From: Physcomitrium patens
Lineage: Eukaryota > Streptophyta > Bryopsida > Funariales > Funariaceae
Direction: 5' to 3'
Assembly: GCF_000002425.4 (NCBI RefSeq)
Contig: NC_037253.1
Location: 10,406,567-10,470,566 of the forward strand
Length of the DNA: 64,000 bases
Of the stretch, positions 1,001 to 35,984 are shown in pieces. The notes under the pieces were generated by a model. The model was given only the letters and a program-made list of their open reading frames with translations. It made no database searches and had not been told where the DNA came from. The translations under genes were made by a program, and so were the position numbers. Every line of letters begins with the position of its first letter. The first letter of the stretch is position 1.

Positions 1001-1041
1001 TTACCCCCCCTTCTAGAGACGAGTTCCACGAAGAGCGGTCA

Positions 1042-1464
1042 TCATATGTTGAGGAAATCTATGATGCGACGAATTGTATTCGCCACATACTCTGATCTCT
1101 GTTCTCTTCGAAGATGATTGATAGGGCCTCTCAACCATCGGTAGTGTCCCATACCAGGGCGGGAAGACCACCCAGTTATTTGATCATTATTGAGGCCTTC
1201 ATAACTTCCTTCGAATAGAATATTCGGAACACCATCAGGAGTTGTTCCTACCTCTAGCAAAATCACCAAACATCGGGAGTCCCTTCCCAAATCATGATAC
1301 CAAACGCGTTGTATCTCACCATCTGTTCGAGGAAGAACATGTCGTTCTTGAAGATCTTCATCTCGATTGCGTCGTCTTGAAGGTTGTGAGAATCGTAATG
1401 TCTCGTCCGGCAGGTCAGCAAACGAAGGTTCTTGAGTTGAATCTGCTGGTTGTTGGCTCTCCAT
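1042..1464 (-). CDS. Element A ORF3, 140-aa protein of unknown function
   Basis: This intact ORF lies between the chromodomain end of pol and the 3' LTR, with its own ATG after a gap of about 95 nt. The product is hydrophilic and basic, with no signal peptide or membrane segment, so it is not an envelope protein although it occupies the env position. Recognisable blocks are an acidic/basic N-terminus (ADLPDETLRF, SQPSRRRNRDEDLQER), a central IQRVWYHDLGRDSRCLVILL strand-like segment, and a C-terminal GMGHYRWLRGPINHLRREQR block ending in a probable helix. It differs from the copy in element C by one Gly/Glu change. Related reading frames occur in D and F, and it is missing in E. I recognise no family. 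A regulatory or nucleic-acid-binding accessory protein is one guess. Confidence 0.8.
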   Translation of the reverse strand: MESQQPADSTQEPSFADLPDETLRFSQPSRRRNRDEDLQERHVLPRTDGEIQRVWYHDLGRDSRCLVILLEVGTTPDGVPNILFEGSYEGLNNDQITGWSSRPGMGHYRWLRGPINHLRREQRSEYVANTIRRIIDFLNI

Positions 1465-1558
1465 CTAATTAGCGTCACAAATGCAAAGAAGTTACAAACA
1501 AGGATAGAAAATTGAATGTTATCTTGCCTCAATCTTGTCTCTTTTATAAGAGAGATTT

Positions 1559-4500: not shown

Positions 4501-5047
4501 TAGGTGCAGCATAAATAGCAAAAGTTGATCCTTCTTTTGCTGCGTGTATAAATGCTTTTGCACCTATCAGTACGGGTTTTACTGTACTAGACTTATAATT
4601 TTTTACTTGGTTGGTAGAACTATTAATAACGCTTTTGGAAAAGTCAAGTTTACGCAAATTCCAATCTATTCGAGGGTTATATTTTTCTAGCCAAGATAAA
4701 CCTAAAATAACTGGATTGGACGGGGATTTAATTATGTTAAAAGCTATGTAGCTATCATGACCGTCTATTGTTACTTTTATAGGATGAGTTTCATGAGTGA
4801 CATCTCCAGAAGACAAGGGACGACCATCTATGACTTCTACATGTACTGGTTTAGGTTTCTGTACAAAGGGTATTTTACGACTTTTAACAAATTGTTCATC
4901 TAAAAAACATGCTGAGGCTCCCGAATCTAATAAAGCAGAGGCTTTGTAATTCTTAGGTCCTAAATATAAGTCTATTATAAAATAAGGAGAGGGTTCTGAG
5001 TAGAGGATAGGACCTTCATTAGGAATTGTACAAGGTTCCAGCTGCAC
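1559..5047 (-). pseudogene. Element A pol: protease-RT-RNase H-integrase-chromodomain, defective
   Basis: The pol frame is -1 relative to gag and opens upstream of 5,047 without an ATG. Domains in order are aspartic protease (LLDSGASACFLDE), reverse transcriptase (CVDYRGLNK, MPFGLTNAP, VCYLDDILIYS), RNase H (METDALDFALG), integrase zinc finger and DDE core, GPY/F module and chromodomain (EFEVEEILDSRRRR, YLVHWRGYDISERTWEP). The RT looks intact. The integrase does not: the second zinc-ligand His is Tyr (GYFG, codon 2,789-2,791), the first catalytic Asp is Asn (SMNFITDLP, codon 2,600-2,602), and a TAA at 2,057-2,059 cuts off the GPY/F and chromodomain part (1,559-2,056, same frame). All three defects are shared with element C. 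Each looks like a C-to-T or G-to-A change. The product would normally make and insert the cDNA. Confidence 0.9.
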
Positions 5048-5127
5048 GGTCCCTATTGTAGCTGGACGAATCCGTTTTCCGACATGTTGTCTTCTTTGAC
5101 CGTCGTACCCCTCATTTTATAGTTGCG

Positions 5128-6057
5128 TTATTTCTTTGGACAATATTGAGCAGTGTGCTTAGGTTCTCCGCAATATAAACATAATCCTTCTTGACGACGA
5201 CGAATCTTTTCTTGCTTAATTAGAGGTTTAAAACGTACCGCGTCAATTTGCATGTCTTCTACTTTCGAATGTACGTTTGGCAAAGATGTTGATGTTGCCA
5301 TTGAGTAATAACGTTGAGGTTCCCGTGAATGATTCTCAGATCGAAATTCAAAAAGTCGATTATCACATTTTACCGCAAAATCGATTGCTTGACTCAAAGT
5401 TTGAGGATCAGGTAAGTTGAGCATCAATTTCTTTACTTCGTATTGCAATCCATAAAGAAATTGACTGATGAGTGCAGCATCATCCCACTTGATGTCAATT
5501 GCAAGTTATCAAAATTGTGAAGCATATACTGTTACTGAGCGATTTTCTTGTCGCAGAATTCGGATCTTATTTGTTGCAACACGAGTTGCATCGTGTTCAC
5601 CATACATAGATCGAAACTCCGCCAAAAAAGCTTCCAAATTGTCCAATATTGGATTTTGTTGTTCAAGAAAAGACGAAAACCACGATAATGCAGAACCAGA
5701 AAGTAGAGTGCCAATAAACCTGACTTGTGATCCTGGAGTTGGATAGCTTTGCGGTTGAAGTTCAATTGCCAATTGTACTTGATTGATGAACCCTCGAAAC
5801 TTTGATCTCGTACCATCAAATTTCTCAGGTAAGGCAATTCTTGGTTCTCTAGTGCTTATAGGGTGTTGTACAATTGGAGAAGGAACGTGATTTGTTGTAG
5901 ATGTTGAAGCAGCTCCGATCATCTCTATATCTCCACTTTCTGCTATTCTTGTTCTTTCATGTGTTGGTAAATTGAGTTGATGCATCGCAAGCATTAACTC
6001 CCTCATTTGCTCTTGCATTTGTGTCATTGCACTCTTCATTTCAACAAGTTCTGCCAT
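5128..6057 (-). pseudogene. Element A gag with nonsense codons
   Basis: This is the capsid/nucleocapsid gene, starting at the ATG at 6,057 (MAELVEMKS). It has a central capsid-like region (LPEKFDGTRSKFRGF, WFSSFLEQQNP) and one CCHC zinc knuckle (CLYCGEPKHTAQYC) for RNA binding. Compared with the intact copy in C, two adjacent codons near 5,505 have become TGA and TAA (Arg, Gln), and the codon after KK near 5,128 has become TAA. The pattern fits deamination of C on either strand. The product would be truncated in the capsid region, so particles would have to come from another copy. Confidence 0.9.
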
Positions 6058-6141
6058 AATGACACTAAGAAGAAAAATTTGTTTGATATTGCTCAAGACA
6101 AAAGAAAAGAAAGACTTGATAACAAAGAAGATACTAAGAAC

Positions 6142-6248
6142 AATATCAGTTTAGAAGTGGGTAATCCGCAAACTTCTAATACGCTTATGTCTTGTCAAGA
6201 GAAAGGGGTAATCCACTCTTACTCAAGAAAAAACAAAGCTCTGATATT
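6142..6248 (-). other. Element A structured leader module
   Basis: The closing arms AATATCAG (6,142-6,149) and CTGATATT (6,241-6,248) are perfectly complementary. They enclose two hairpins whose loops contain GGATTACCC on the element strand. The layout is identical to the module in element C at 15,147-15,254, described there. Confidence 0.75.
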
Positions 6249-6256
6249 GTAAGTGT

Positions 6257-6267
6257 ACTCTTGTCAA
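6257..6267 (-). other. Element A self-priming primer-binding site
   Basis: On the element strand this reads TTGACAAGAGT, 2 nt after the end of the 5' LTR. It is the exact complement of ACTCTTGTCAA at the predicted RNA 5' end in the LTR. See the site in element C. Confidence 0.75.
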
Positions 6268-6269
6268 TC

Positions 6270-6821
6270 TGTCAAGGACAAAGACTCGATGAGGAAAAAT
6301 ATACACCAAAAGGCTATCTCGATATAATAAGTCAAAATATAAACAAGTAGGTATATTAAAAGGAAACTGGAATGGCTATTGCCACAAGACAAGAAACTAA
6401 AGACTCTTGAACCTGGACTAGAAGCAAGAAAGGAGTTGACAAGAGTGAAGAAGCCTTCACTCTTGTCTCTATATATACTATCTAACTAGGGGCTACGTGG
6501 CGACGTTCTATAGGACCTCCAATATGTGTTGACTTTGTAGGACACATGCCTTGACTTACAAGGCAAGTTTTTCTACGTGTGGGCCACATAGTTAGCTTGA
6601 TCTTCAAGCTAACAACATGTGTGGCACATGGCCAACTTGTTGACCACGTTTCTAATCCAAAAAGTCAATTAAAGACACCTATGAAGTCAAAGCAGCGTCT
6701 AGGAAGTTTTTAGGAAGCTTCTATATTAAATATTATAGAATTAACTTACTTTTATCTACTTTTACTTACTTCTACCTATTTCTATATGTAATTATTAGCT
6801 TACATGATTATGGCCGTGACA
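6270..6821 (-). repeat. Element A 5' LTR (552 bp)
   Basis: It runs from TGTCACGG to TTGACA on the element strand and has the TATA box and RNA start seen in C. It matches the 3' LTR except at four positions. Positions 6,433 and 6,710 agree with the 5' LTR of element C rather than with its own 3' LTR. Confidence 0.95.
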
Positions 6822-9794
6822 ACTCCATAAGTCAAGCTTCGGATGGTATCCATAATTGGAAAAAAATGGCGTTTGTTGAGTTGACGCATGAAGGGTGTTG
6901 TTATATGCGAACTCGGCTAGCACTAGATATGCAGGCCAATCATCTTGTTGATAGTTGATGGTGCAACGTAAATATTGCTCTAAAACTTGATTCACTCGTT
7001 CTGTTTGGCCGTCCGTTTGAGGATGAAATGCTGAAGAAAGCTTGATATCCACCTTCAATATTTCAAAAAGAGATTTCCAAAACTTTGACACAAACTGGGT
7101 TCCTCGATCCGATACGATATCATCTAGTAGACCATGATATCGATACACATTATCAAGAAAGAGTCTTGCTGTGTCTTCGCTTGACGATGTCTTCTTGCAA
7201 GGGACAAAATGTGCCATCTTTGTAAGCCGATCTACGACAACAAAAATGCTGTCAAATGAATTCGATGGTGGTAGATCCGTAATAAAGTCCATGGAAACCG
7301 AAGACCATGGTCGGCGCGGAATAGGCAATGGCTGTAGAAGTCCATAAGGCCGATGTCGAGGGTTTTTGGATCTTGAACAAATGTCACAAGATACAACAAA
7401 ATCTTTCACATCCTTCCACATTTGAGGCGACCAGAAATCGCGGGAAATAAGTTCCAAGGTCTTATTGAATCCAAAATGTCCCGCAGTTGGAAAGTCATGA
7501 CGAGATTGAAGAACTCGGAGTCGTGTTGGCCCTTTTGGGATATACAACCGCTCTTCGAAATATACTAGATCTCCTTCCATCTTGAATTTATCATTACTAA
7601 CATGTTGCTTGATATCAAGGGCTAGAGAATCTTCAATGGTTGCGGCCCGTACCTGGTCGAGGAAGTCAGCATCAATTCGTACAATAGCTGCGTTGAGTCG
7701 AAATTTCTCTGGCTTCAACAATGTCGTGCACTGTTGATCAAATGCTGCATCTCCAGCCTTTGGCGCGAGATATGATCTCCTTGATAATGCATCGGACAAC
7801 CCTTGTTACTTCCCAGGCCGATAAGTAATAACAAAGTCGAACCTGGATAGCGACATACTCCACCGAGCTTGACGCCGATTCAAAACCTGAGCCGACATAA
7901 AATACTCTAAATTCTTGTGATCCGTATATACGGTCACTAGATGTGCAGTTCCTTCGAGAAAGTGGCGCCACTCTTGGAAAGAATCTACTATAGCAAGGAG
8001 TTCCTTATTGTGGATCTCATAGTTGATCTCAGCAGCAGAGAATTTTCGAGAATAGAACGCAACTGGATGGAGCTTCTCATCTATGCCCATCTGTGAAAGT
8101 ACAGCTCCCAAAGCAAAATCCGAAGCATCTGTCTCCAAATAAAAGGCCTTTGTAAAGTCCGGATGTACCAAGATTGGAGCTGTAGTAAATACCATCTTCA
8201 AGTCTTGGAATGCTTTTTCTGCAATAGGTCCCCATTCGAGCTTGTCCTTGCACGTTAACCGAGTGAGGGGGGCAGCAACTTGAGAATAATTCTTGATGAA
8301 GATCCGATAGTAGTTAGTAAATCCAAGAAAACATTGTACGTCCCTAACCGTCTTCGGAACTTCCCAAGACATGATTGCTTCCACCTTCTTTGGATCCATC
8401 TTCAATCCTTCTGTAGTCGCGATGAATCCCAAAAACTCCATCTCAGTTTGGTGAAATAAGCACTTCTCCAATTTGGCATAGAGTCCTCGCTCCCATAGTT
8501 TTTTGAGTACTAGACGAACGTGCTTCTCATGTTCTTCCTCGTTCTTAGAAAATATCAAAATATCATCTAGATAGATGACAACAAAATCGTCTAGATGCTC
8601 TCGAAAGATGTCATTCATCATGTGTTGAAAGACCGCTAGAGCATTAGTAAGACCAAATGGCATGACATTGTATTCAAAATGGCCATACCTTGTTTGAAAA
8701 GTTGTCTTCCATTCATCTCCTTTCTTGATTCGCACAAGGTTGTAAGCTCCCCTTAGGTCAATCTTTGTAAAGATCCTTGCACGCCCAAGTTGTTCTAGAA
8801 GATCAGAGATCAAAGGCAGTGGGTAGCGATTCTTTTTTGTCACCTTGTTGAGACCTCGATAGTCCACGCACATCCGTAGTGAGCCATCTTTCTTCTTCAC
8901 AAATAAAATTGGTGCCCCAGCTGGCGACTTCGAATGACGGATGAAGTTCTTGGCTAGATTCTCGTCAATGTACTTTCGCAACTCAGTCAACTCCGTCTGC
9001 GACAAATTGTAGATTGGTCCAAAAGGTGGTTGTGCTCCTTCTTGCAATTCAATGGCACAGTCATAGGGTCGATGCTCAGGCAGCATATCAGCATTCTTCT
9101 TTTCAAAGACATCTTTGAATTCTTCATACTGCTTTGGAATAACCAAAGTCGGAGTTGCATCTTCTCGAGTCGGAGTTGCAAAGATGACAAGAGGTGTATT
9201 TTGCTTGGCTTCTTTCATGAAAGCCCTTGCACCTATAAACAAGGATTTGTTTCTAGACATTGTCTTGGCAGATTCCACCTTCAAGGAGTTTGTTAGAAAT
9301 GTCACTTTCCGCAACTTCCAATCTATCAATGGATTATATCTATCAAGCCAAGATAGTCCCAAAATGATAGGACATGAAGGGGTCTTGATAACATTAAACA
9401 CAATATTGCTCTCATGGTTTTCAAGATGTACCTTCAATGGTTTAGTTTCATGGATAACATTGCCCGAAGACAATGGTCGTCCATCTATGACTTCTACATG
9501 GACAAGCTTAAGTTTCTTTACAAGAGAAATATTGTGAAGCTTGGCAAACTCTTCATCTATAAAGCAAGCGGATGCACCCGAGTCTAATAAAGCATCGACT
9601 TGTAGTTCTTGAATACCCAGATGTAAAGGTACCATAAAACAATCTGAAGGTTGAGCTGAGAGAAAGGGACCTTGATTAATTTTGGATGTTGAGATGTCCA
9701 GCCGCACGGTCCCTATTGTGGCTGGGCGTCCTTGTTTTCCTGCATGCTTGTACTCCTGAGTCTTGTTGTTTGAGGCTTCTGTTTCTTCCGACAA
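6822..9794 (-). pseudogene. Element B pol: protease-RT-RNase H-integrase
   Basis: The frame overlaps gag by about 80 nt in -1 phase and has no ATG near its start, so it is probably made as a Gag-Pol fusion. It contains protease (LLDSGASACFIDEEF), RT (CVDYRGLNKVTKKNRYP, VVIYLDDILIFS), RNase H (LETDASDFALGAVL, with catalytic Asp), the integrase zinc finger with both His (HDFPTAGHFG) and CDIC, and the complete DDE core (SMDFITDLP, SDRGTQF, TERVNQ). One codon, the Gln after TYRPGK, is TAA (7,806-7,808). The sequence is broken at 6,822 by element A and resumes at 448. Apart from these two defects and a TAG near 200 it reads through. It is the best reference for functional residues lost in A and C. 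Confidence 0.9.
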
Positions 9795-10762
9795 TCTACA
9801 GCTTTATGGCCCGCTTCTCCGCAATATAAACACAAGTTTTGTTCAAACCGTCGCTTCCTTTCCTTAGCTGTGAGGGGTTTGAAACGTACCGCATCAATTT
9901 GCATGGGTTCAGGATCTGTGGAGTGATTCTCTGGACCTTTTGAAAATGTAGCAAATGCTCCATCATTTCTCCAGCCTGATCGTCTTTCTTGTCGTAATTC
10001 AAAGAGGCGGTTGTCACAAATAATTGCCTGAGATATAAGTTCTTCTAAAGTATCCGCCTTAGGCATGGTGATCAATAAGTTCTTGACATCATCTCTCAGT
10101 CCATATCGAAATCGTGTCATGAACGCCTTATCATTCCAATCAAGGTCACATGTAAGCTGTTGAAATTTTGCAGCATAGATTGCAGTAGAACGTGATCCTT
10201 GTCGCAGATTTTGTATCTTTCTTTCAGCCACTCTTTCTCGATCGCTATCTCCAAACGCAGCAGTAAGTCTCTCTATGAAAGCCTCTAGGTCGTACAATAT
10301 TGGAGAATCCTTCTCCAATAGTGGAGCAAACCAAGAGCGAGCATTTCTTGATAGAAGAGTACCTATGAAAGCAATCTGGGTAAATCCATTCGGATAACGA
10401 GAAGGGTATAGGCGTAGGTAAAGCCATACTTGTTGCACAAAACCTCGAAAGTTGGCTCTTGTTCCGTCAAACTTGTCTGGCATACTCGCTTTTGGTTCTT
10501 TTGTACTAATCCTTGAAGTATCCATAGGGGTCGTATGTGACACATGTCTTGCTTCTCTCAGTCGAATAATCTCTTGTTGTAGGCTATGAATTTCGCGTCT
10601 AGCTTCTTTGGTCACTAGATCAATTTGAGGTTCTTTACTTGGATTGCAAAGAAATGCAATCTCCTTTCGTACACTATTCATAAGAGCTTGAAGATCTGCA
10701 AGAGTTGCCACTCTATTGTCTACTTGTGGAGATGCACTGTCTATGACCTGGTCTATTTCCAT
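9713..10762 (-). CDS. Element B Gag (349 aa)
   Basis: The ORF is intact from a true ATG (MEIDQVIDSAS). The N-terminal third has a predicted coiled-coil-like helix (EIHSLQQEIIRLREARHV). It is followed by the capsid region (MPDKFDGTRANFRGFVQQV, ARSWFAPLLEKDSP, IYAAKFQQLTCDLDWNDKAF) and a single CCHC knuckle near the C-terminus (CLYCGEAGHKAVDC). Gag would assemble the virus-like particle and package RNA. The stop is TAG in the sequence ACAATAGGGACC, which also forms the gag stop in C and D. The pol frame passes through this stop in -1 phase (coding RPATIGTV). I see no classical heptamer slippery site in the overlap, so how Pol is expressed is not settled. Confidence 0.92.
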   Translation of the reverse strand: MEIDQVIDSASPQVDNRVATLADLQALMNSVRKEIAFLCNPSKEPQIDLVTKEARREIHSLQQEIIRLREARHVSHTTPMDTSRISTKEPKASMPDKFDGTRANFRGFVQQVWLYLRLYPSRYPNGFTQIAFIGTLLSRNARSWFAPLLEKDSPILYDLEAFIERLTAAFGDSDRERVAERKIQNLRQGSRSTAIYAAKFQQLTCDLDWNDKAFMTRFRYGLRDDVKNLLITMPKADTLEELISQAIICDNRLFELRQERRSGWRNDGAFATFSKGPENHSTDPEPMQIDAVRFKPLTAKERKRRFEQNLCLYCGEAGHKAVDCRKKQKPQTTRLRSTSMQENKDAQPQ

Positions 10763-10884
10763 ATTTAGAGAATAGATGGATTAAAATTTTGAGAGAAGAA
10801 GAAATTGCTAAGTCTCTTGGAGAAAATTGTAGCACTACCTGTCACTAAAACCTACTCGGAGAAAAGAAAAAAAAAAACACTAAA
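10763..10884 (-). other. Element B leader, segment next to gag
   Basis: This is the untranslated segment between the gag ATG and the first stem-loop module. It is purine-rich on the plus strand and includes an A-rich run at 10,867-10,877. No motif beyond that is apparent. Confidence 0.5.
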
Positions 10885-11258
10885 CGATTTCAGTTTTAGA
10901 GGAGGGTAATCCGCAACCTCTAAAAATGCCTCAATGCTTTCGAGAAGAGGGGTAATCCGCACTCTATCAAGAAGGCAAAGCTCTGAAATCGATGTTAACA
11001 GTCTTTTCTACTAGCTATGCTAAACAAAAAGAAGGAATTAATATCAGTCCAAGAGAGGGTAATCCGCAACCCTTAGAACGCTCAAGTATCTCCAAGGAAA
11101 GGGGTAGTCCACTCTCTGCCTCAAAGAACTAAGCTCTGATATTGTGATTGAGAAAATATCAGTTTAGAGGAAGGTAATCCGCAACCACTAAAGCGCTAGA
11201 ATACCTTCAAGAAGAGGGGTAATCCGCTCTCAAACAAGAAGGATTCAGCTCTGATATT
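10885..11258 (-). other. Element B leader: three tandem stem-loop modules
   Basis: Three diverged copies occur at 10,885-10,991, 11,040-11,143 and 11,155-11,258. Each is bounded by complementary arms: CGATTTCAG/CTGAAATCG in the first, AATATCAG/CTGATATT in the second and third. Each encloses two hairpins whose loops read GGATTACC or close variants on the element strand. The best hairpin pairs TTTTAGAGG with CCTCTAAAA around the loop. The first copy's closing arms differ from the others by paired changes, which is the signature of a selected RNA structure. Element C has a single such module. Its function is unknown. Packaging, dimerisation, translation start or a role in reverse transcription are possible. 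Confidence 0.75.
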
Positions 11259-11269
11259 AAGATAAAGGT

Positions 11270-11280
11270 AGTCTCGACAA
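11270..11280 (-). other. Element B self-priming primer-binding site
   Basis: On the element strand this is TTGTCGAGACT, 2 nt from the LTR end. It perfectly complements AGTCTCGACAA at 11,408-11,418 in the LTR, which lies about 32 nt from the TATA box, where the RNA should start. The sequence differs from the C family site (TTGACAAGAGT) at several positions, and the LTR partner differs in the matching way. Confidence 0.78.
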
Positions 11281-11282
11281 AC

Positions 11283-11754
11283 TGTCACGGACACAAAATA
11301 CAGACTTGAAATCTAACAAGAAGTTCAAGAAGAAGTGGCAGAACTAGATTAAACAGATGAGTACAAGAACAACACCAGAAAGGTGAGCTAGAACTCCAAG
11401 AGATGTGTTGTCGAGACTGAAGAACTCTTCAGCCTTGACTCCTATATATATTACTAGCCTATGGTTCTAAGGAAGCGCATCAAGAAGCTTCCCAAGAACT
11501 ATGAAGCTTCTCGAGCAACTACCCAAGAGCTAGGAAGCTTCTCAAGTAACTTCCTAGAATCTACTAGAATATTCTAAGAATCTTCTAGAGCCTTCTAAGG
11601 GAATCTTTAGGGAATCTTCAAAGAATCTTTAGGGAATCTTTGAAGAATATTCTAAGAGAATATTCAAAGAATCTTCTGGAAGTTTCTAGAGACTTCTTTC
11701 TAGAAGGTTCTAAAAACTTGTCTCTAGAAAGGTCTAAGGACTATGTCCCTAACA
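11283..11754 (-). repeat. Element B 5' LTR (about 472 bp)
   Basis: The ends are TGTTAGGG... and ...GTGACA on the element strand. A TATA box (TATATATAGG) lies at 11,443-11,450, and the predicted RNA start at about 11,418 begins AGTCTCGACAA. A short perfect hairpin (CTGAAGA and TCTTCAG) lies between the TATA box and the start. The U3 part (11,455-11,740) is filled with GAA/TTC pentamers. The right boundary was set from the junction with G pol sequence. Confidence 0.85.
11668..11711. promoter_or_regulatory. Heat-shock element array in element B U3
   Basis: Consecutive pentamers from 11,668 read AGAAT CTTCT GGAAG TTTCT, then AGAGA CTTCT. This gives six units of alternating nGAAn/nTTCn with one imperfect (AGAGA). 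Three further perfect units follow (TTTCT AGAAG GTTCT, 11,697-11,711). More pairs such as GAATATTC and GAATCTTC lie between 11,560 and 11,667. Three alternating units are enough to bind heat-shock factor in eukaryotes. The array is about 220-260 bp upstream of the TATA box. Heat-driven transcription of B is inferred, not shown. Confidence 0.65.
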
Positions 11755-12414
11755 ACAATCATATGGGCGATGTTCAAGAAGAATATCTGCATTCTTTTTC
11801 TCAAAAACGTCTTGATAATCTTGATATTGACTTGGAATGCCACTTGAAGTCTTTACGCTTTCAGAAATAGGTGCAGCATAAATAGCAAAAGTTGATCCTT
11901 CTTTTGCTGCGTATATAAATGCTTTTGCACCTATAAGTACAGGTTTTACTATACTAGATTTATAAATTTTTACTTGGTTGATAGAACTATTAATAATGCT
12001 TTGGGAAAAGTCAAGTTTACAAGAATTCCAATCTATTCAAGGGTTATATTTTTCTAGCCAGGATAAACCTAAAATAATCGGATTGGACGGGGATTTAATT
12101 ATGTTAAAAGCTATGTAGCTATCATGACCGTTTATTGTTACTTTTATAGGGCGAGTTTCTTGAGTGACATCTCCAGAAGACAAAGGACGGCCATCAATGA
12201 CTTCTACATGTACGAGTTTAGTTTTCTGTACAAAAGGTATTTTATGACTTTTAACAAATTTTTCATCTAAAAAACATGCTAAGGCTCCCGAATCTAATAA
12301 AGCAAAGGCTTTGTAATTCTTAGGTCCTAAATATAATTCTATTATAAAACAAGAATTGGGTTCTGAGGAGAGGATAGGACCTTCATTAGGAATTGTACAA
12401 AGTTCCAGCTGCAC
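11755..12414 (-). pseudogene. Element G pol fragment (protease to N-terminal RT linker)
   Basis: The fragment begins at the VQLE-type pol start and covers the protease (ALLDSGALACFLDEKF, with Ser-to-Leu after DSGA) and the linker to the RT as far as the conserved Pro-His-Arg-Pro region, where B is inserted. One Arg codon after KYNP near 12,035 has become TGA. The frame is otherwise readable and close to that of A and C. It cannot yield a working enzyme. Confidence 0.85.
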
Positions 12415-12478
12415 GGTCCCTATTGTAGCTAGACGAATCTGTTTTCTGACATGTTGTCTTCTTTGACCGCGGTACCCC

Positions 12479-13423
12479 TCATTTTATAGTTACGTTATTT
12501 CTTTGGACAATGTTGAGCAGTGTGCTTAGGTTCTCCGCAGTATAAACATAATCCTTCTTGACGACGACGAATCTTTTCTTGCTCAGTATGGATTTAAAAC
12601 GTACCACGTCAATTTGCATGTCTTCTACTTTCGAATGTACGTTTGGCAAAGATGCTGATGTTACCATTGAATAATAATGTTGAGGTTCCCATATACGACT
12701 CTCGAATCGAAATTCAAAAAGTTGATTGTCACATTTTACCGCAAAATCGATTGCTTGACTCAAAGTTTGAGGATCAGGTAAGTTGAGCATCAATTTCTTT
12801 ACTTCGTATTGTAATCCATAAAAAAATTGACTGATGAGTGCAGCATCATCCCACTTGATGTCAATTGCAAGTTGTCGAAATTGAGAAGCATACATTGTTA
12901 CTGAGCGGTTTCCTTGTCGCAGAATTCGGATCTTGTTTGTTGCAACACGAGTTGCATCGTGTTCACCATACATAGATCGAAACTCTCCCAAAAAAGCTTC
13001 CAAATTGTCCAATATTGGATTTCGTTGTTCAAGAAAAGACGAAAACCACGATAATGTAGAACCAGAAAGTAGAGTGCCAATAAACCTGACTTGTGATCCT
13101 GGAGTTGGATAGCTTTGCGGTTGAAGTTCAATTGCTAATTGTACTTGATTGATGAACCCTCGAAACTTTGATTTTGTACCATCAAATTTCTAGGGTAAAG
13201 CAATTCTTGGTTCTCTAGTGCTTACAGGGTGTTGTACAATTGGAGAAGGAATGTGATTTGGTGCAGATGTTGAAGCAGCTCCGATCATCTCTATATCTCC
13301 ACTTTCTGCTATTCTTGTTCTTTCCTATGTTGGTGAATTGAGTTGATGCATCGCAAGCATTAACTCCCTCAATTGTTCTTGCATTTGTGCCATTGCACTC
13401 TTCATTTCAACAAGCTCTGCCAT
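12479..13423 (-). pseudogene. Element G gag, broken
   Basis: Gag is homologous to that of A and C over its full length, from the ATG at 13,423. It has a TAG at the start of the KFDGT motif (near 13,193), a small deletion causing a frameshift near 12,585 and other changes. The zinc-knuckle sequence survives in another frame. The intact reference is the gag at 15,339-16,343. Confidence 0.85.
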
Positions 13424-13509
13424 AATGATACTAAGAAGAAAAATTTGTCTGATATTGCTCAAGACAAAAGAAAAAGAAAAGACTTGATAACAAAGAAGAT
13501 ACTAAGAAC

Positions 13510-13615
13510 AATATCAGTTTAGAAGTGGGTAATCCGCAAACTTCTAATATGCTTATGTCTTGTCAAGAGAAAGGGGTAATCCACTCTTACTCAAGAAAAA
13601 CAAAGCTCTGATATT
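13510..13615 (-). other. Element G structured leader module
   Basis: A single module as in A and C, with closing arms AATATCAG (13,510-13,517) and CTGATATT (13,608-13,615) fully retained although the genes of this copy have decayed. Confidence 0.7.
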
Positions 13616-13636
13616 GTAAGTGTGCTCTTGTCAATC

Positions 13637-14195
13637 TGTCAAGGACAAGAATTTGATGAAAAAACAATTCAAACAAGTGTGCATTCACTCAAAGAGAAGT
13701 AACAAAATATATATAAACAAGTATATATATTGAAAGAGAAACTGGAATGGCTATTGCTAAAATACAAGAAAACTAGAGACCCTTGAAACAGACTAGAAGC
13801 AAGAAAGGAGTTGACAAGAGTGAAGAAGCCTTCACTCTTGATCTATATATACTCTCTAACTAGGGACTACGTGGCGACGTTCTATAGGACCTCCAATATG
13901 TGTTGACTTTGTAGGGCACATGCCTTGACTTACAAGGCAAGTTTTTCTACGTGTGGGCCACATAGTTAGCTTGATCTTCAAGCTAACAACATGTGTGGCA
14001 CATGGCCAACTTGTTGACCACGTTTCTAATCCAAAAAGTCAATTAAAGACACCTATGAAGTCAAAGCAGCATCTAGGAAATTTCTAGGAAGCTTCTATAT
14101 TAAATATTATAGAATTAACTTACTTTTACCTATTTTTACTTACTTTTACCTATTTCTATATATAATTATTAGCTTACATGATTATGGCCGTGACA
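13637..14195 (-). repeat. Element G 5' LTR (559 bp)
   Basis: Ends TGTCACGG and TTGACA on the element strand. It aligns with the A/C LTRs but has a different stretch at 13,650-13,740 (around 'aattcaaacaag'). At the two sites that separate 5' from 3' LTRs in A and C, G carries the unmutated base at both. Confidence 0.9.
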
Positions 14196-14573
14196 ATAGG
14201 TCTATAAAGAGTATAGAATAGGTATGATCTTTAAGTCTTACAATATTATATGTAGAATTAAAAAAAATATTAATTTCATAAATGGATAGTTTAGAAGGTA
14301 TAATAGATGATTAAAATGGAAAAGTAATTAATATTTCATGCATAATGATTGGTATTAAAGGATAAGTATAAATATGTTAAAGAATAAGTAAAAAACGCTT
14401 GAATTGTGAAAGTCTAGAGTTGGGATTAACTTGGTGCTATCACTTGTATTTCTTTGTTTTATTTTCTTTTATGATAATACCAAAGTTGAGAGATTGAGAT
14501 CCATTCTCATTGATGAACAATATAAATTAAAAATATTATAATAAAATAGAAATTGGATCTTTATGTTGTTGAG
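14196..14573 (+). repeat. Repeat R, copy 1, left part
   Basis: AT-rich sequence between G and C with no gene. It aligns with 23,060-23,480; for instance the block around 'atggatagtttagaagg' occurs in both. It continues on the far side of C at 20,953, so C is inserted in this repeat. R may be an LTR of an older element. Its family is unknown. Confidence 0.6.
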
Positions 14574-15125
14574 TGTCACGGCCATAATCATGTAAGCTAA
14601 TAATTACATATAGAAATAGGTAGAAGTAAGTAAAAGTAGATAAAAGTAAGTTAATTCTATAATATTTAATATAGAAGCTTCCTAAAAACTTCCTAGACGC
14701 TGCTTTGACTTCATAGGTGTCTTTAATTGACTTTTTGGATTAGAAACGTGGTCAACAAGTTGGCCATGTGCCACACATATTGTTAGCTTGAAGATCAAGC
14801 TAACTATGTGGCCCACACGTAGAAAAACTTGCCTTGTAAGTCAAGGCATGTGTCCTACAAAGTCAACACATATTGGAGGTCCTATAGAACGTCGCCACGT
14901 AGCCCCTAGTTAGATAGTATATATAGAGACAAGAGTGAAGGCTTCTTCACTCTTGTCAACTCCTTTCTTGCTTCTAGTCCAGGTTCAAGAGTCTTTAGTT
15001 TCTTGTCTTGTGGCAATAGCCATTCCAGTTTCCTTTTAATATACCTACTTGTTTATATTTTGACTTATTATATCGAGATAGCCTTTTGGTGTATATTTTT
15101 CCTCATCGAGTCTTTGTCCTTGACA
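14574..15125 (+). repeat. Element C 5' LTR (552 bp)
   Basis: It runs from TGTCACGG to TTGACA. The TATA box is at 14,917-14,926 and the predicted RNA start at about 14,949. U3 has two good inverted repeats: GTTAGCTTGA/TCAAGCTAAC (14,782-14,804, 3-nt spacer) and TGCCTTG/CAAGGCA (14,830-14,848). A 13-bp perfect stem, GACAAGAGTGAAG with its complement, spans the TATA-proximal region and the RNA start. Confidence 0.95.
14917..14926 (+). promoter_or_regulatory. TATA box of element C LTR promoter
   Basis: GTATATATAG lies 32 nt upstream of the ACTCTTGTCAA segment that pairs with the primer site. The same 32-nt spacing is found in element B, where the sequences differ. Confidence 0.7.
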
Positions 15126-15127
15126 GA

Positions 15128-15138
15128 TTGACAAGAGT
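15128..15138 (+). other. Element C self-priming primer-binding site
   Basis: TTGACAAGAGT starts 2 nt after the LTR. It is the exact complement of ACTCTTGTCAA (14,949-14,959), the predicted 5' end of the element RNA. In Tf1-type elements the RNA 5' end folds back on such a site to prime minus-strand DNA. No good match to a tRNA 3' end lies in this position. Confidence 0.78.
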
Positions 15139-15146
15139 ACACTTAC

Positions 15147-15254
15147 AATATCAGAGCTTTGTTTTTTTCTTGAGTAAGAGTGGATTACCCCTTTCTCTTG
15201 ACAAGACATAAGCATATTAGAAGTTTGCGGATTACCCACTTCTAAACTGATATT
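15147..15254 (+). other. Element C structured leader: three-way-junction module
   Basis: Closing arms AATATCAG (15,147-15,154) and CTGATATT (15,247-15,254) are perfect complements. Hairpin 1 pairs AAGAG with CTCTT (15,176-15,199) around a loop containing TGGATTACCCC. Hairpin 2 pairs TTAGAAGT with ACTTCTAA (15,217-15,245) around a loop TTGCGGATTACCC. The loop motif is conserved in A, B, C, D and G, while stem sequences change in paired fashion. The module lies between the primer site and the gag ATG, so it is in the genomic RNA leader. The function is unknown. Confidence 0.75.
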
Positions 15255-15338
15255 GTTCTTAGTATCTTCTTTGTTATCAAGTCTTTCTTTTCTTTTGTCT
15301 TGAGCAATATCAAACAAATTTTTCTTCTTAGTGTCATT

Positions 15339-16343
15339 ATGGCAGAACTTGTTGAAATGAAGAGTGCAATGGCACAAATGCAAGAGCAAATGAGGGAGTT
15401 AATGCTTGCGATGCATCAACTCAATTCACCAACACAGGAAAGAACAAGAATAGCAGAAAGTGGAGATATAGAGATGATCGGAGCTGCTTCAACATCTACA
15501 ACAAATCACGTTCCTTCTCCAATTGTACAACACCCTATAAGCACTAGAGAACCAAGAATTGCCTTACCTGAGAAATTTGATGGTACGAGATCAAAGTTTC
15601 GAGGGTTCATCAATCAAGTACAATTGGCAATTGAACTTCAACCGCAAAGCTATCCAACTCCAGGATCACAAGTCAGGTTTATTGGCACTCTACTTTCTGG
15701 TTCTGCATTATCGTGGTTTTCGTCTTTTCTTGAACAACAAAATCCAATATTGGACAATTTGGAAGCTTTTTTGGCGGAGTTTCGATCTATGTATGGTGAA
15801 CACGATGCAACTCGTGTTGCAACAAATAAGATCCGAATTCTACGACAAAGAAATCGCTCAGTAACAGTATATGCTTCACAATTTCGACAACTTGCAATTG
15901 ACATCAAGTGGGATGATGCTGCACTCATCAGTCAATTTCTTTATGGATTACAATACGAAGTAAAGAAATTGATGCTCAACTTACCTGATCCTCAAACTTT
16001 GAGTCAAGCAATCGATTTTGCGGTAAAATGTGATAATCGACTTTTTGAATTTCGATCTGAGAATCATTCACGGGAACCTCAACGTTATTACTCAATGGCA
16101 ACATCAACATCTTTGCCAAACGTACATTCGGAAGTAGAAGACATGCAAATTGACGCGGTACGTTTTAAACCCCTAATTGAGCAAGAAAAGATTCGTCGTC
16201 GTCAAGAAGGATTATGTTTATATTGCGGAGAACCTAAGCACACTGCTCAACATTGTCCAAAGAAACGACGCAACTATAAAATGAGGGATACGACGGTCAA
16301 AGAAGACAACATGTCAGAAAACGGATTCGTCCAGCTACAATAG
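15339..16343 (+). CDS. Element C Gag (334 aa)
   Basis: This is the only intact Gag of the A/C family in the window. It starts at the ATG at 15,339 (MAELVEMKSAMAQMQEQ), because upstream in-frame codons offer no ATG. The N-terminus is a likely coiled coil (repeated M/Q/E heptads). The capsid part spans about residues 75-235 (LPEKFDGTRSKFRGFINQV, SALSWFSSFLEQQNP, LYGLQYEVKKL). One CCHC knuckle lies at about residues 293-306 (CLYCGEPKHTAQHC), followed by a basic tail (KKRRNYKMR). It would build the particle and bind element RNA. The stop TAG lies in ACAATAGGGACC, conserved in other families. The pol frame overlaps from 16,280 in -1 phase. Confidence 0.93.
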   Translation: MAELVEMKSAMAQMQEQMRELMLAMHQLNSPTQERTRIAESGDIEMIGAASTSTTNHVPSPIVQHPISTREPRIALPEKFDGTRSKFRGFINQVQLAIELQPQSYPTPGSQVRFIGTLLSGSALSWFSSFLEQQNPILDNLEAFLAEFRSMYGEHDATRVATNKIRILRQRNRSVTVYASQFRQLAIDIKWDDAALISQFLYGLQYEVKKLMLNLPDPQTLSQAIDFAVKCDNRLFEFRSENHSREPQRYYSMATSTSLPNVHSEVEDMQIDAVRFKPLIEQEKIRRRQEGLCLYCGEPKHTAQHCPKKRRNYKMRDTTVKEDNMSENGFVQLQ

Positions 16344-19300
16344 GGACCGTGCAGCTGGAACCTTGTACAATTCCTAATGAAGGTCCTATCCTCTCATCAG
16401 AACCCTCTCCTTGTTTTATAATAGACTTATATTTAGGACCTAAGAATTACAAAGCCTCTGCTTTATTAGATTCGGGAGCCTCAGCATGTTTTTTAGATGA
16501 ACAATTTGTTAAAAGTCGTAAAATACCCTTTGTACAGAAACCTAAACCAGTACATGTAGAAGTCATAGATGGTCGTCCCTTGTCTTCTGGAGATGTCACT
16601 CATGAAACTCATCCTATAAAAGTAACAATAGACGGTCATGATAGCTACATAGCTTTTAACATAATTAAATCCCCGTCTAATCCAGTTATTTTAGGTTTAT
16701 CCTGGCTAGAAAAATATAACCCTCGAATAGATTGGAATTTGCGTAAACTTGACTTTTCCAAAAGCGTTATTAATAGTTCTACGAACCAAGTAAAAAATTA
16801 TAAGTCTAGTACAGTAAAACCCGTACTGATAGGTGCAAAAGCATTTATACACGCAGCAAAAGAAGGATCAACTTTTGCTATTTATGCTGCACCTATTTCT
16901 GAAAACGTAAAGACTTCAAGTGACATTCCAAGTCAATATCAGGAGTATCAAGACGTTTTTGAGAAAAAGAATGCAGATATTCTTCCTGAGCATCGCCCAT
17001 ATGATTGTTCAATCGACCTCAAGGAAGGAACTCAGCCACCATTTGGACCAATTTACAGTTTATCGCAAGATGAGATGGCTGAATTCAAGACATATATTGA
17101 CGAGAATTTAGCAAAGAATTTCATACGCCATTCAAAATCTCCAGCAGGAGCTCCAATTCTATTCGTAAAGAAAAAAGATGGATCTTTACGAATGTGTGTT
17201 GATTATCGAGGACTCAACAAGATCACAATCAAGAACAGGTATCCATTACCTTTGATATCAGGACTCCTTGACCAGTTGAATCAAGCTAAGATCTATACAA
17301 AAATAGATCTAAGAGGAGCATATAATCTAGTACGGATCAAAGAAGGAGATGAATGGAAGACTGCGTTTCGAACCAGGTATGGACATTTCGAATATAATGT
17401 CATGCCCTTTGGACTCACGAATGTACCAGCTGCTTTTCAACATCTCATGAATGATGTATTTCGTGAATTCTTAGACAATTTTGTCGTCTGCTATCTAGAC
17501 GATATCCTGATCTATTCTAAGAACGTCGAAGAACATGAAATACATGTTCGTCAAGTATTACAAAAACTTAGAGATGCAGGATTGTACGCCAAGATGGAAA
17601 AGTGTGTATTTCACACTACTCGAGTTGACTTTTTAGGATACATCATTTCAAATGATGGTCTCATGATGGATTCTAAGAAAGTCCAAACAATCGTGGATTG
17701 GAAGATTCCAAGGACGGTAAGAGATGTCCAATGTTTCTTGGGATTTGCCAATTACTATCGGATCTTCATCAAAGATTTCTCACGAGTTGCAGCTCCACTT
17801 ACACGCTTGACTAGTAAAGATAAATTTCAATGGAATCAAGAAGCGGAAGCAGCATTTGAAGCCTTGAAGACATCGTTTGTCTCTGCACCAGTCTTATATC
17901 GTGTTGACTTTTCCAAGGCATTTTTTATGGAAACAAATGCATCAGATTTTGCCTTGGGTGCAGTTTTATCACAAATGGAAACAGATGACAAACTCCATCC
18001 GATAGCTTTTCATTCAAGAAAATTCTCAGTAGCCGAGATCAATTATGAGATCCACGATAAAGAACTTCTTGCGATCATGGATTCCTTTCAAGAATGGCGT
18101 CATTATCTAGAAGGCGCTTCTAGTCCAGTCACTATGTATACAGATCACAAGAACCTCGAGTATTTCATGTCAGCACGCGTATTGAATCGTCGTCAAGCTC
18201 GTTGGAGTATGTCTTTGTCAAGATTCGAGTTCATTATCACTTATCGGCCAGGAAAACAACAAGGTTTATCCGATGCCCTATCTAGACGTTCTTATTTTGC
18301 ACCAAAAGAAGGAGATGCAGCTTTTGAGCAACAAAGAACGGTCCTCTTGAAACCGGAGCAATTTCATCTCCGAGCAATGAAATCAACATTGACTATTGAT
18401 TCAACTTTTCTCAAGCAAATCCAGTCCAGTATGTCCTCAGACCCTCTTGTTTATGATATCGAGAATAATTCTTCCAAGTCTCATGATCCTTCTAAGTTTG
18501 AGTTCAAGAATAATCTATTATATTTTGAAGGACGCCTATATGTTCCAGAAGGAGAAGCACGTTTACGTGTTCTTCAAGCACGTCATGACTTTCCAGCAGC
18601 AGGGTACTTTGGATATAATAAGACTTTGGAACTCATATCAAGAGATTTTTGGTGGCCACAAATGTGGAAGTCAGTCAAAGACTTTGTACAATCATGTGAT
18701 ATTTGTTCAAGATCAAAAATTCCTCGTCATCGACCTTACGGACTTCTTCAGCCATTACCTATACCAGAACAACCATGGTCTTCTGTTTCTATGAATTTCA
18801 TCACAGATCTTCCAAGCTCAAGATCTTATGATTCTATATTTGTGATAGTAGATCGTTTCACCAAGATGGCACATTTTGTGCCATGTACAAAATCTATCAC
18901 AGGTGAAGAAACAGCTAAGCTTTTCATTGATAATATCTATCGCTATCATGGATTACCTAAAGATATCATATCGGATAGGGGAACTCAATTTGTGTCAAGA
19001 TTTTGGAGGACCCTTTTCAAGATTTTAAAAGTGGACATAAAACTATCTTCGGCTTTTCATCCTCAAACTGATGGACAAACAGAGCGCGTAAACCAAGTCT
19101 TGGAGCAATATTTAAGGTGTACTATCAACTACCAACAAGATGATTGGACAACCCTTCTGCCATTGGCAGAGTTTGCTTATAATAATACGGTACATTCTTC
19201 CACGCAACAAACACCTTTCTTTGCCAATTATGGCTATCATCCACGACTTGATACTTTTGATTTTTCAAAAGTTGATAATCCTGCAGCAGAGGATATGGCA

Positions 19301-19837
19301 AATCGGTTGTCAGAGTTACATGCAATAATGAAGACATAATTGAAGGAAGCTCAAGAACGACAAAAGATAAACGCAGATCTATATCGTAAGGAGCAACCAC
19401 AGATCAACGTCGGTGATAAGGTATGGCTACTTCGTCGCAATATCAAGACTACTCGACCTTGTGACAAGTTGGACTATCGTAGGCTTGGCCCCTTTTCTGT
19501 TTCTGAACAGATCAACCTAGTTGCATATCGGTTACATCTACTAGAGTCAATGAAGATCCATCCTGTATTCCACGTATCTCTTCTTGAACCATATAAGACA
19601 GTGGATATACAAGGAAGAAGACAAATGCCACCGCCTCCTATAGAAGTAGATAATAATGAAGAATTTGAGGTGGAAGAGATATTAGACTCAAGGCGGCGCC
19701 GAAATAAGCTGGAATATCTTGTTCATTGGCGCGGATATGATATTAGTGAACGCACATGGGAGCCATCCAGGAATCTAGCAAATGCATCAACTAAAGTCAA
19801 AGTTTTTCATCAACGACATCCATCAAAACCAAGATAA
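16280..19837 (+). pseudogene. Element C pol: protease-RT-RNase H-integrase-chromodomain
   Basis: The frame is open from 16,280 (overlapping gag) to TAA at 19,337-19,339, then open again in the same frame to 19,837. Counting from GTG 16,349: protease DSG at residues 41-43, RT with YLDD at 382-385, RNase H from about 520, and integrase from about 740 with the DDE core. The C-terminal part after the TAA has the GPY/F module (KLDYRRLGPF) and a complete chromodomain (EFEVEEILDSRRRRNKLEYL, WEP). Lost residues are the RNase H Asp at 530 (TNAS for TDAS), the integrase zinc His at 753 (GYFG) and the first catalytic Asp at 816 (SMNF). RT and protease look functional. Unless the TAA is read through, the chromodomain is not attached. 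The integrase defects are shared with A. Confidence 0.92.
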
Positions 19838-19931
19838 AAATCTCTCTTATAAAAGAGACAAGATTGAGGCAAGATAACATTCAATTTCCTATCCTTGTTT
19901 GTAACTTCTTTGCATTTGTGACGCTAATTAG

Positions 19932-20354
19932 ATGGAGAGCCAACAACCAGCAGATTCAACTCAAGAACCTTCGTTTGCTGACCTGCCGGACGAGACATTA
20001 CGATTCTCACAACCTTCAAGACGACGCAATCGAGATGAAGATCTTCAAGAACGACATGTTCTTCCTCGAACAGATGGTGAGATACAACGCGTTTGGTATC
20101 ATGATTTGGGAAGGGACTCCCGATGTTTGGTGATTTTGCTAGAGGTAGAAACAACTCCTGATGGTGTTCCGAATATTCTATTCGAAGGAAGTTATGAAGG
20201 CCTCAATAATGATCAAATAACTGGGTGGTCTTCCCGCCCTGGTATGGGACACTACCGATGGTTGAGAGGCCCTATCAATCATCTTCGAAGAGAACAGAGA
20301 TCAGAGTATGTGGCGAATACAATTCGTCGCATCATAGATTTCCTCAACATATGA
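19932..20354 (+). CDS. Element C ORF3, 140-aa protein of unknown function
   Basis: This is an intact ATG-initiated ORF 94 nt after the pol stop and 41 nt before the 3' LTR. It differs from the A copy by one residue (Glu for Gly in the LLEVETTPDG block). It has a proline/acid-rich N-terminus, an Arg-rich stretch (QPSRRRNRDEDLQER), a central segment IQRVWYHDLG and a C-terminal GHYRWLRGPINHLRREQR region. No transmembrane helix, signal peptide, zinc motif or protease motif is seen. The D copy keeps the same 423-nt frame without indels despite high divergence, which argues for past selection on the protein. It would need a subgenomic or spliced RNA, or reinitiation, for expression. I recognise no known family. 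Confidence 0.82.
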   Translation: MESQQPADSTQEPSFADLPDETLRFSQPSRRRNRDEDLQERHVLPRTDGEIQRVWYHDLGRDSRCLVILLEVETTPDGVPNILFEGSYEGLNNDQITGWSSRPGMGHYRWLRGPINHLRREQRSEYVANTIRRIIDFLNI

Positions 20355-20381
20355 TGACCGCTCCTCGTGGAACTCGTCTCT

Positions 20382-20392
20382 AGAAGGGGGGG
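20382..20392 (+). other. Element C polypurine tract
   Basis: AGAAGGGGGGG lies 3 nt before the 3' LTR and serves as the plus-strand primer in LTR elements. The A copy has the same tract in complement at about 1,004-1,014. Confidence 0.8.
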
Positions 20393-20395
20393 TAA

Positions 20396-20947
20396 TGTCA
20401 CGGCCATAATCATGTAAGCTAATAATTACATATAGAAATAGGTAGAAGTAAGTAAAAGTAGATAAAAATAAGTTAATTCTATAATATTTAATATAGAAGC
20501 TTCCTAGAAACTTCCTAGACGCTGCTTTGACTTCATAGGTGTCTTTAATTGACTTTTTGGATTAGAAACGTGGTCAACAAGTTGGCCATGTGCCACACAT
20601 GTTGTTAGCTTGAAGATCAAGCTAACTATGTGGCCCACACGTAGAAAAACTTGCCTTGTAAGTCAAGGCATGTGTCTTACAAAGTCAACACATATTGGAG
20701 GTCCTATAGAACGTCGCCACGTAGCCCTTAGTTAGATAGTATATATAGAGACAAGAGTGAAGGCTTCTTCACTCTTGTCAACTTCTTTCTTGCTTCTAGT
20801 CCAGGTTCAAGAGTCTTTAGTTTCTTGTCTTGTGGCAATAGCCATTCCAGTTTCCTTTTAATATACCTACTTGTTTATATTTTGACTTATTATATCGAGA
20901 TAGCCTTTTGGTGTATATTTTTCCTCATCGAGTCTTTGTCCTTGACA
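20396..20947 (+). repeat. Element C 3' LTR (552 bp)
   Basis: It differs from the 5' LTR at six positions, all transitions. Two of the six (20,507 and 20,784) carry the state of the A 3' LTR. It is followed by the duplicated target TTGAG. Confidence 0.95.
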
Positions 20948-35199: not shown

Positions 35200-35748
35200 T
35201 GTCATAGACATATATATTTATCTCAATAGTTACTTATATGATTAAGTAGAAGTACATAAATATAGAATAATTTCATAAAATCTTCTAAAAAAGCTTCCTA
35301 AAAGCTTCATAGATGCAGTTTTGACTTTAGATGTATTTGTAGGTTAGAAACTTGGCCAAAAAGCTAACCATATATTGGTAGCTTGTAGAACAAGTTATCT
35401 CCGTGTAATAGCTTGTGGAACAAGACAACTATGTGGTGCATATATAGATAACTTGCCTTGCAAGATAAGACATGTGGCTAGCAAAGTCAACACAAGTTGG
35501 AAGTCCTATAGAACATCACCACATATCTCTTAGTTAGATAGTATATATGGAGGCAAGAGTGAAGCCTTCTTCACTCTTGTCAACACATTTTTAGCCTCAG
35601 TCTTGTTTCAAGACTTTCTAGTCTTCTTATTTTTGGCAATAGCCATTCTAATTAATATTATATCACTTTTTGAGAGACTTTCTAGTTCTCTTCAATGATA
35701 GAAGAGTATATTGAGGATTCACTTTCTTCAAGATTCATGTCCTTGACA
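35200..35748 (+). repeat. Element D 5' LTR (549 bp)
   Basis: It begins TGTCATAG and ends TTGACA. It holds two units, one imperfect, of the AGCTTGTAGAACAAG-type 30-bp repeat near 35,378-35,430, a TATA box near 35,540 and ACTCTTGTCAA near 35,572. Confidence 0.92.
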
Positions 35749-35750
35749 GT

Positions 35751-35761
35751 TTGACAAGAGT
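35751..35761 (+). other. Element D self-priming primer-binding site
   Basis: TTGACAAGAGT, 2 nt after the 5' LTR, complementary to ACTCTTGTCAA in the LTR. The sequence and spacing are identical to C although the elements are otherwise much diverged. Confidence 0.75.
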
Positions 35762-35788
35762 GCTAACATATTATTTTTGTCTTGTTTT

Positions 35789-35955
35789 AAAAGTGAGTAG
35801 ATTACCCCACTTCTATTGTTGTGTTTTGAAAGTTACGGACTACCCACCTTTAAATAAAAAATCTTATTTTGTAACATTGATCTTTTCTCTAAAGAAGGTG
35901 GATTACTCCTCTTTGTAGGATTTGTTTTTAGAGGTTGTGGATTACCATCCTCTAA
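35789..35955 (+). other. Element D leader with four GGATTACC-type hairpins
   Basis: Four hairpins are visible: AAGTG/CACTT around TAGATTACCC (35,791-35,812), AAAG/CTTT around CGGACTACCC (about 35,829-35,851), AAAG(A)/(T)CTTT around TGGATTACTCC (about 35,891-35,914) and TTAGAGG/CCTCTAA around TGTGGATTACC (35,928-35,955). The last has the same stem sequence as the best hairpin in B. C uses a different but equally paired stem. The loops stay recognisable although this copy is decayed. Confidence 0.65.
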
Positions 35956-35984
35956 TTTAACTTTTCAATTTGTTTGAATTGTCT

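Follow-up and report, generated by a model that had tools for sequence, protein, structure and literature searches.

The leader RNAs of several Ty3/gypsy retrotransposons in Physcomitrium patens carry a module of ~110 nt, consisting of a closing stem and two hairpins that are each capped by G-Y-GG-ANNA-CC-C. We regard it as close to certain, with respect to both structure and selection, that this leader module is a selected three-way-junction RNA. It is found in five elements (C, A, G, B and D) of the 64,000-nt stretch of DNA analyzed here (hereafter, the window), lies 3' of the self-primer binding site and 5' of gag, and is present in one, two or three copies per element. Among several candidate roles, the most likely is that of a packaging site bound by Gag, to which we assign a probability of roughly 0.45.

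Nested and neighboring Ty3/gypsy elements fill parts of the window. Element C (14574-20947, plus strand) and element A (449-6821, minus strand) are 99% identical, and their 5-bp target duplications are TTGAG and ACTCC, respectively. Positions 1-14200 appear to hold nested minus-strand insertions, A lying within B, and B inside or next to the truncated element G. The plus-strand elements D and E are older and decayed (the LTRs of D are 90% identical to each other). Element C encodes (i) Gag, the proposed binder of the module (15339..16343, plus strand; PF03732, E = 2.6e-14), with a capsid domain and one CCHC zinc knuckle, (ii) a pol frame with protease, RT, RNase H and integrase, and (iii) a chromodomain after the integrase (PF00385, E = 6.7e-16; frame 19340-19837). 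An in-frame TAA (19337-19339 in C, and at the matching place in A) parts the pol frame from the chromodomain frame. The surrounding DNA is that of a land plant: a neighboring gene encodes a germin-like cupin, whose best match among solved structures is oxalate oxidase 1, and a nearby AP2 match falls slightly under the Pfam cut-off (30.8 vs 33.3 bits).

The module of element C spans 15145..15256 (plus strand), as delimited by the MFE fold, the alignment of copies (A3) and pair counts. Its closing P1 arms, ACAATATCAG/CTGATATTGT (15145-15154 / 15247-15256), enclose hairpin 1 (15156-15213), which follows the 5' arm after a one-base linker, and hairpin 2 (15217-15245), which begins after a three-base linker and ends one base before the 3' arm. 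Both hairpins (P2 and P3) have the same end, G-Y-GG-AUUA-CC-C, in which a pyrimidine bulges out after the first G-C pair and two more G-C pairs lead to a loop of four bases; the two cores, on the plus strand like the rest of the module, are GTGGATTACCC (15180..15190) and GCGGATTACCC (15227..15237). The first-pass annotation had described closing arms and two hairpins with a common loop motif in C, single copies in A and G, and three copies in B, and all of these are present. The minus-strand copies lie at 6140..6251 in A (104.7 bits), 13508..13618 in G (108.2 bits) and, in B, at 10884..10993 (B1, nearest gag; 98.9 bits), 11038..11146 (B2, in which the hairpin 1 loop is ACTA; 101.5 bits) and 11153..11261 (B3, nearest the primer site; 106.6 bits). 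These scores are from a covariance model, R1, for which all five are training sequences; the training set of seven is completed by C and by a copy from a related element outside the window, L025. Two paired stem changes quoted earlier were likewise confirmed: B1 carries the private closing arms CGATTTCAG/CTGAAATCG, and the inner stem TTAGAAGT/ACTTCTAA of C is replaced by TTAGAGG/CCTCTAA in B1 and D.

Model R1, trained without D, also recovers two decayed tandem modules in that element: D-I (hairpins 1 and 2; 35769..35865, plus strand; 31.3 bits, E = 7e-6) and D-II (hairpins 3 and 4; 35870..35966, plus strand; 38.5 bits, E = 9e-8). A search of the window together with 31 loci returned the seven training copies and these two modules (E = 3.4e-5 and 4.5e-7 in that search). 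The four hairpins noted earlier in D are thus there as two modules, but no closing arms are recognizable, and neither stretch folds better than its 200 shuffles (z = +0.80 and -1.06); these poor scores fit with decay, and lend the module no support. Compared with 200 shuffles, the fold energies of C, G, B1, B3 and L025 have z = -4.66, -4.22, -2.79, -3.01 and -2.68, respectively, and that of B2 has z = -1.82, with 7 of 200 shuffles folding equally well. The three B copies are 65-79% identical to each other, 73-77% identical to C and 69-76% identical to L025, and each retains its own paired stems. Either the B array is old, or its members have been swapped between families; in both cases, several copies have been kept. 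The copies of B are not recent duplicates. The earlier proposal that tandem gain points to an effect of dose is suggestive only: B retains three old copies and D two. No Rfam 15 family matched the window at gathering scores, or positions 14949-15345 at E values of up to 5.

Evidence for selection on the RNA comes from pairing, from the kinds of mismatch tolerated and from substitution rates. Alignment A3 contains seven rows, of which five are independent (A and G are near-duplicates). With the structure taken from the L025 fold, 91.4% of cells are paired and 15 of 40 pairs show two-sided changes; with that taken from the C fold, the values are 96.3% and 16 of 42. None of 500 shuffles reached the observed paired fraction, number of two-sided pairs or covariation score with either structure. 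The observed number of further pair types was reached by 3 of 500 shuffles with the C structure and by 63 of 500 with the L025 structure; for this measure, the shuffle control is weak with the latter. Tree simulations free of structure gave means of 2.9 and 2.5 two-sided pairs (maxima of 9 and 7), and none of 500 reached the observed values. When A and G were dropped, leaving five of the seven rows, 15 two-sided pairs remained with both structures (null maxima of 7 and 8). We claim no single covarying pair, because the sequences are few.

The mismatches reveal which molecule is selected. In independent rows not used to define the structure, G·U occupies 15 cells and A·C only 2 (p = 0.002); with the other structure, the counts are 12 and 3 (p = 0.035), and other mismatches number 8 and 11 in the two comparisons. 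This asymmetry indicates that selection acts on the sense-strand RNA, rather than on a DNA palindrome. In addition, no substitution separates C from G among 110 module positions, compared with 65 among 551 positions of the LTR, 53 among 1004 of gag, 44 among 666 at the start of pol and 3 among 82 of the leader past the module. Fisher tests of the module give p = 3.5e-4 versus all other regions together, 0.0035 versus gag and 0.076 versus the post-module leader; this constraint spans stems and loops. The recent copies C and A differ at 1 of 111 module positions, like the rest of the element (p = 0.62). The first-pass annotation had argued for a selected RNA from paired changes around a fixed loop, and had called for a covariance model with a statistical test of covariation. 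Its argument is upheld by covariation beyond two controls (shuffle and simulation nulls on seven copies), by the excess of G·U over A·C, by the constraint between C and G, and by the independent relative L025.

The hairpin ends are more constant than the stems, though the loop is not invariant as first described. We counted 14 occurrences of motif GGATTACC in the window, where 0.99 would be expected, and none of 100 shuffles reached this number. Twelve of the occurrences fall inside modules, always on the sense strand of their own element, and two (2439 and 18950) fall within pol frames. Across 14 non-redundant hairpins (18 in all, leaving out four from A and G), the 11-base core is invariant at positions 4, 5, 8 and 9, and both tetraloop A's are among the fixed bases. 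The bulge is C in eight and T in six; the second tetraloop position is T in 11, C in two and G in one; and the third is T in 13 and A in one. The loops found are AUUA, ACUA, AUAA and AGUA. None of these is self-complementary as a retroviral dimer-initiation loop would be, so the dimerization signal once suggested is unlikely if it is to work through kissing between identical loops. We also considered, and rejected, base pairing between the loop and a complement elsewhere in the element's own RNA, since none of the 14 exact GGATTACC matches is antisense to an element.

The primer site that had been placed 5' of the module is present, and it is a self-primer site, not a tRNA site. In C, the predicted mRNA 5' end, ACTCTTGTCAA (14949..14959, plus strand), stands 31 nt after TATATATA and is complemented by TTGACAAGAGT (15128..15138, plus strand), 2 nt past the LTR, with a pairing probability of 0.958; such an 11-nt pair with the predicted mRNA 5' end is the arrangement of Tf1. 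The mRNA start is itself a prediction from the TATA box. The corresponding self-primer and binding site of B are AGTCTCGACAA (11408..11418, minus strand) and TTGTCGAGACT (11270..11280, minus strand; pairing probability 0.768), and those of D are the 12-nt stretches 35572..35583 and 35751..35762 (plus strand). The exact complement measures 11 nt in C, A and B, 12 nt in D and L025, and 10 nt in G. Six further relatives of these elements (L026-L031, described below) lack the module; complements of the same kind but with other letters are found in L026, L027, L029 and L030 (11 nt) and L031 (12 nt), and the primer pair therefore covaries between families. Overall, of the 13 stretches scanned, 11 have a predicted self-primer of 10-12 nt, located 29-33 nt downstream of a TATA box; the exceptions are the decayed element E and L028, for which the stretch ended before the site (one is visible by eye). 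The primer duplex, the central one of the three duplexes in the 'pretzel' around the primer site of Tcn1 and Tf1/sushi elements, is likely (0.77-0.96) in 8 of 10 folded leaders, the others being L030 (0.38) and L025 (0.03). Since six self-primed relatives do without the module, priming as such does not need it.

Two side observations concern the same region. We searched the P1 arm for a tRNA primer site: of TGGTATCAGAGC, which we take to be the tRNA-iMet primer-site string, TATCAGAGC is present, but the first three bases, the complement of the terminal CCA, are absent, and in L025 the arm is replaced; this candidate was rejected. String TGGTATCAGAGC occurs in retrotransposon papers. Separately, the B leader contains a 10-nt exact complement, TCTCTTGGAG / CTCCAAGAGA, located 5 nt after the self-primer and ~54 nt before gag, respectively, which could link the R region with RNA past the three modules; no such complement was seen in C or L025.

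Self-priming of this kind has precedents. It has been predicted for plant Tcn1 elements (sections of PMC6317226), and described for Tf1 and Tj1 (sections of PMC10085805 and PMC4600332); both agree with the arrangement found here, and the self-primer is to that extent known in kind. For the Selaginella element SM-Tcn1, the authors found neither tRNA priming nor self-priming, and called the leader conserved and thymine-rich (excerpts of PMC2864245). With their chromodomain, gag-pol order and predicted self-priming, as in Tcn1 and Tf1/sushi (PMC6317226 and PMC10085805, in part), the elements studied here are self-primed Ty3/gypsy chromoviruses. They differ in the module, to which nothing comparable is mentioned in the available portions of PMC6317226, PMC10085805 and PMC2864245. 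Similarly, among titles and abstract openings in the open-access literature (on topics including self-priming, packaging, MS2 coat protein with GGAUUACC, and chromovirus leader stem-loops), none describes such a hairpin module in the leaders of plant LTR retrotransposons.

The relatives outside the window come from a scan of a genome contig collection with the Gag alignment, which yielded seven loci (L025-L031). Their records are labeled cyanobacteria, but the contigs look eukaryotic. L025 is a B-like element that carries the module, with new closing arms (ATATTGG/CCAATAT) and the loops AUAA and AGUA. L026-L031 are self-primed, chromodomain-type relatives in a bin labeled Trichormus (a cyanobacterium), whose contigs perhaps belong to the plant partner of a symbiosis; no module was found in these six elements by eye or with R1. 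The distance from primer site to gag start is 23-69 nt in the five of them measured, versus 178-507 nt in C, G, B, D and L025. In a tree of 24 Gag rows, built from Gag only and from elements found in this analysis, B, C and L025 belong to a group of 14 (support 90/91, not starred) that does not include L026-L030; L031 stands elsewhere on a long branch. The simplest reading is that the lineage of B, C and L025 acquired the module once.

Broader searches returned little else. In the two cyanobacterial bins that include these eukaryotic-looking contigs (10.7 Mb), R1 gave one match among the candidates it scored (150 out of 746 in one bin and 150 out of 1477 in the other), namely the L025 module itself. 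A single-hairpin pattern hit 24 loci among viral contigs, none of which reached E = 0.05 with the model (best 0.096), and which therefore serve as a chance control; a two-hairpin pattern matched neither viral nor genome contigs. Searching viral contigs with a pol query and the Gag alignment uncovered no relative. The Gag alignment matched at least two of 388 genomes (the class of G002), both already known, with at most five candidates scored per genome.

What, then, might the module do? Retroviral packaging hairpins lie between the primer site and gag. The module, a selected and structured RNA, occupies the same interval, and resembles retroviral and Ty packaging signals in offering structured hairpins there; it differs from them in its two same-ended hairpins on one junction, its whole-module tandems and its lack of a self-complementary loop. 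Fixed hairpin ends on freely changing stems have the appearance of a hairpin read by a protein. A packaging role is favored because of the module's position, these fixed ends on free stems, its multiplication in B and D, and its absence from six self-primed relatives; a further point in its favor is that the hairpin core departs from that of the MS2 coat operator at the bulged base only. In such a role, Gag would bind the hairpin ends of its own element's RNA, and a junction with two hairpins would present Gag multimers with sites in pairs. Gag on the module would mark full-length RNA for packaging into virus-like particles, and would be held next to the primer duplex; extra modules would raise avidity. 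The Gag sequences themselves may point the same way: the tail after the zinc knuckle contains 6-7 K+R in the module-bearing C, B and L025, as opposed to 2-4 in the module-less L026-L031, in a comparison of three sequences with six that reflects one split in the tree and in which two of the six tails are shorter. Several observations count against Gag binding, or against the explanation as a whole. The Gag of the six module-less relatives contains a zinc knuckle as well, and these elements get by with no module, the loops of L025 tolerate AUAA and AGUA, the covariation comes from only five independent copies, and the L025 primer duplex is unfavored in the predicted fold (0.03).

The position directly 3' of the PBS could instead reflect a scaffold for reverse transcription, with the module stacking on the self-primer/PBS duplex in the place of a tRNA body, and aiding cleavage and extension of the self-primer. 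The fold of the C leader does set the primer duplex beside P1, and Tf1 self-priming requires RNA structure adjacent to the PBS (PMC10085805, in part). Such a scaffold is nonetheless unlikely, given that six relatives have the same kind of self-primer without a module, that the duplex is predicted unaided in four of these (0.92-0.96 in L026, L027, L029 and L031), and that the tandem array of B leaves two of three modules far from the PBS. Somewhat less probable still is a translational operator, in which Gag or a host protein on the hairpins would block scanning to gag and so take the RNA out of translation and into packaging. AUG is absent from the leaders of C (390 nt), A (389 nt) and B (656 nt), where shuffles average 3.9, 3.8 and 5.9. 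AUG-free leaders suit scanning ribosomes, which would probably pass through the stable module, and speak against an IRES; an IRES or a uORF is hence disfavored, as is the 'translation signal' of the first-pass annotation if taken as an IRES-like start. An element of this type has a counterpart in the MS2 operator, whose core resembles the present one and which is titled a translational operator in the reference list of PMC12803234. On the other side, the hairpins stand ~100 nt or more upstream of the start codon rather than at it, and the leader of G has one AUG and those of the decayed D and E two each.

A host RNA-binding protein could be the reader instead, with export, stability, localization or avoidance of silencing as the outcome. 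As a reader of the loop it would leave the same trace of a fixed core on varying stems, and this too counts against Gag binding; a host role is nevertheless rather improbable, as the module was found only in element leaders (in the window and the contig collections searched) and differs between related elements of the same kind. Finally, the repeats might act as DNA. The tandem copies of B resemble enhancer arrays, and could form an array of transcription-factor sites 3' of the promoter. Template switching is able to yield paired changes in hairpins, and could, rather than selection, have kept the palindromes. However, a palindrome kept as DNA has no reason to accept sense-strand G·U more readily than A·C (15 vs 2, p = 0.002; 12 vs 3, p = 0.035), and the constraint spans stems and loops; we consider a DNA feature very improbable.

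The hairpins have a parallel in the coat-protein operator of phage MS2. In the older view, the MS2 bulge prefers a purine; in the present hairpins it is C or U in 14 of 14, and a bulged A never occurs. A preprint reports that all bases except G are tolerated there, U and C included (PMC12803234, section 8). The wild-type-like operator core is GAGGAUUACCC, with contacts at the bulge and at loop bases 5 and 7, and A8 used as a contact (available sections of PMC12803234). The bulge position, the two G-C pairs and the AUUA loop are the same here (GYGGAUUACCC), both invariant loop A's are kept, and the most variable loop position, the second (base 6), lies outside the contacts named in those sections. 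Eight of the 14 non-redundant hairpins read G[C/U]GGAUUACCC, matching 10 of 11 positions of the MS2 core, while the exact core GAGGAUUACCC is found in none. Extra unpaired bases under the G-C pair and the presence of two hairpins per module are further differences. We take this likeness to be convergence, a resemblance in the features that a protein might recognize, and claim no kinship. It is a bolder and improbable proposal that a plant LTR lineage independently evolved a capsid-protein operator, in which paired hairpins close to the MS2 core would be read by an unrelated Gag and multiplied in tandem to tune packaging and perhaps also the point at which translation gives way to it; on this reading, the hairpins may even bind MS2 coat protein.

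Little is settled about the sequences by which LTR retrotransposons are packaged; those of Ty1 and Ty3 'have not been precisely defined', in the words of a 2016 paper (PMC4974528, in part). The module, which is compact, repeated and covarying and whose core hardly varies, supplies a directly testable candidate from a plant lineage. Because some self-primed relatives have it and others lack it, packaging or translation roles can be told apart from priming. If Gag reads the module, its likeness to the operator of the phage coat protein would be a clean example of convergence.
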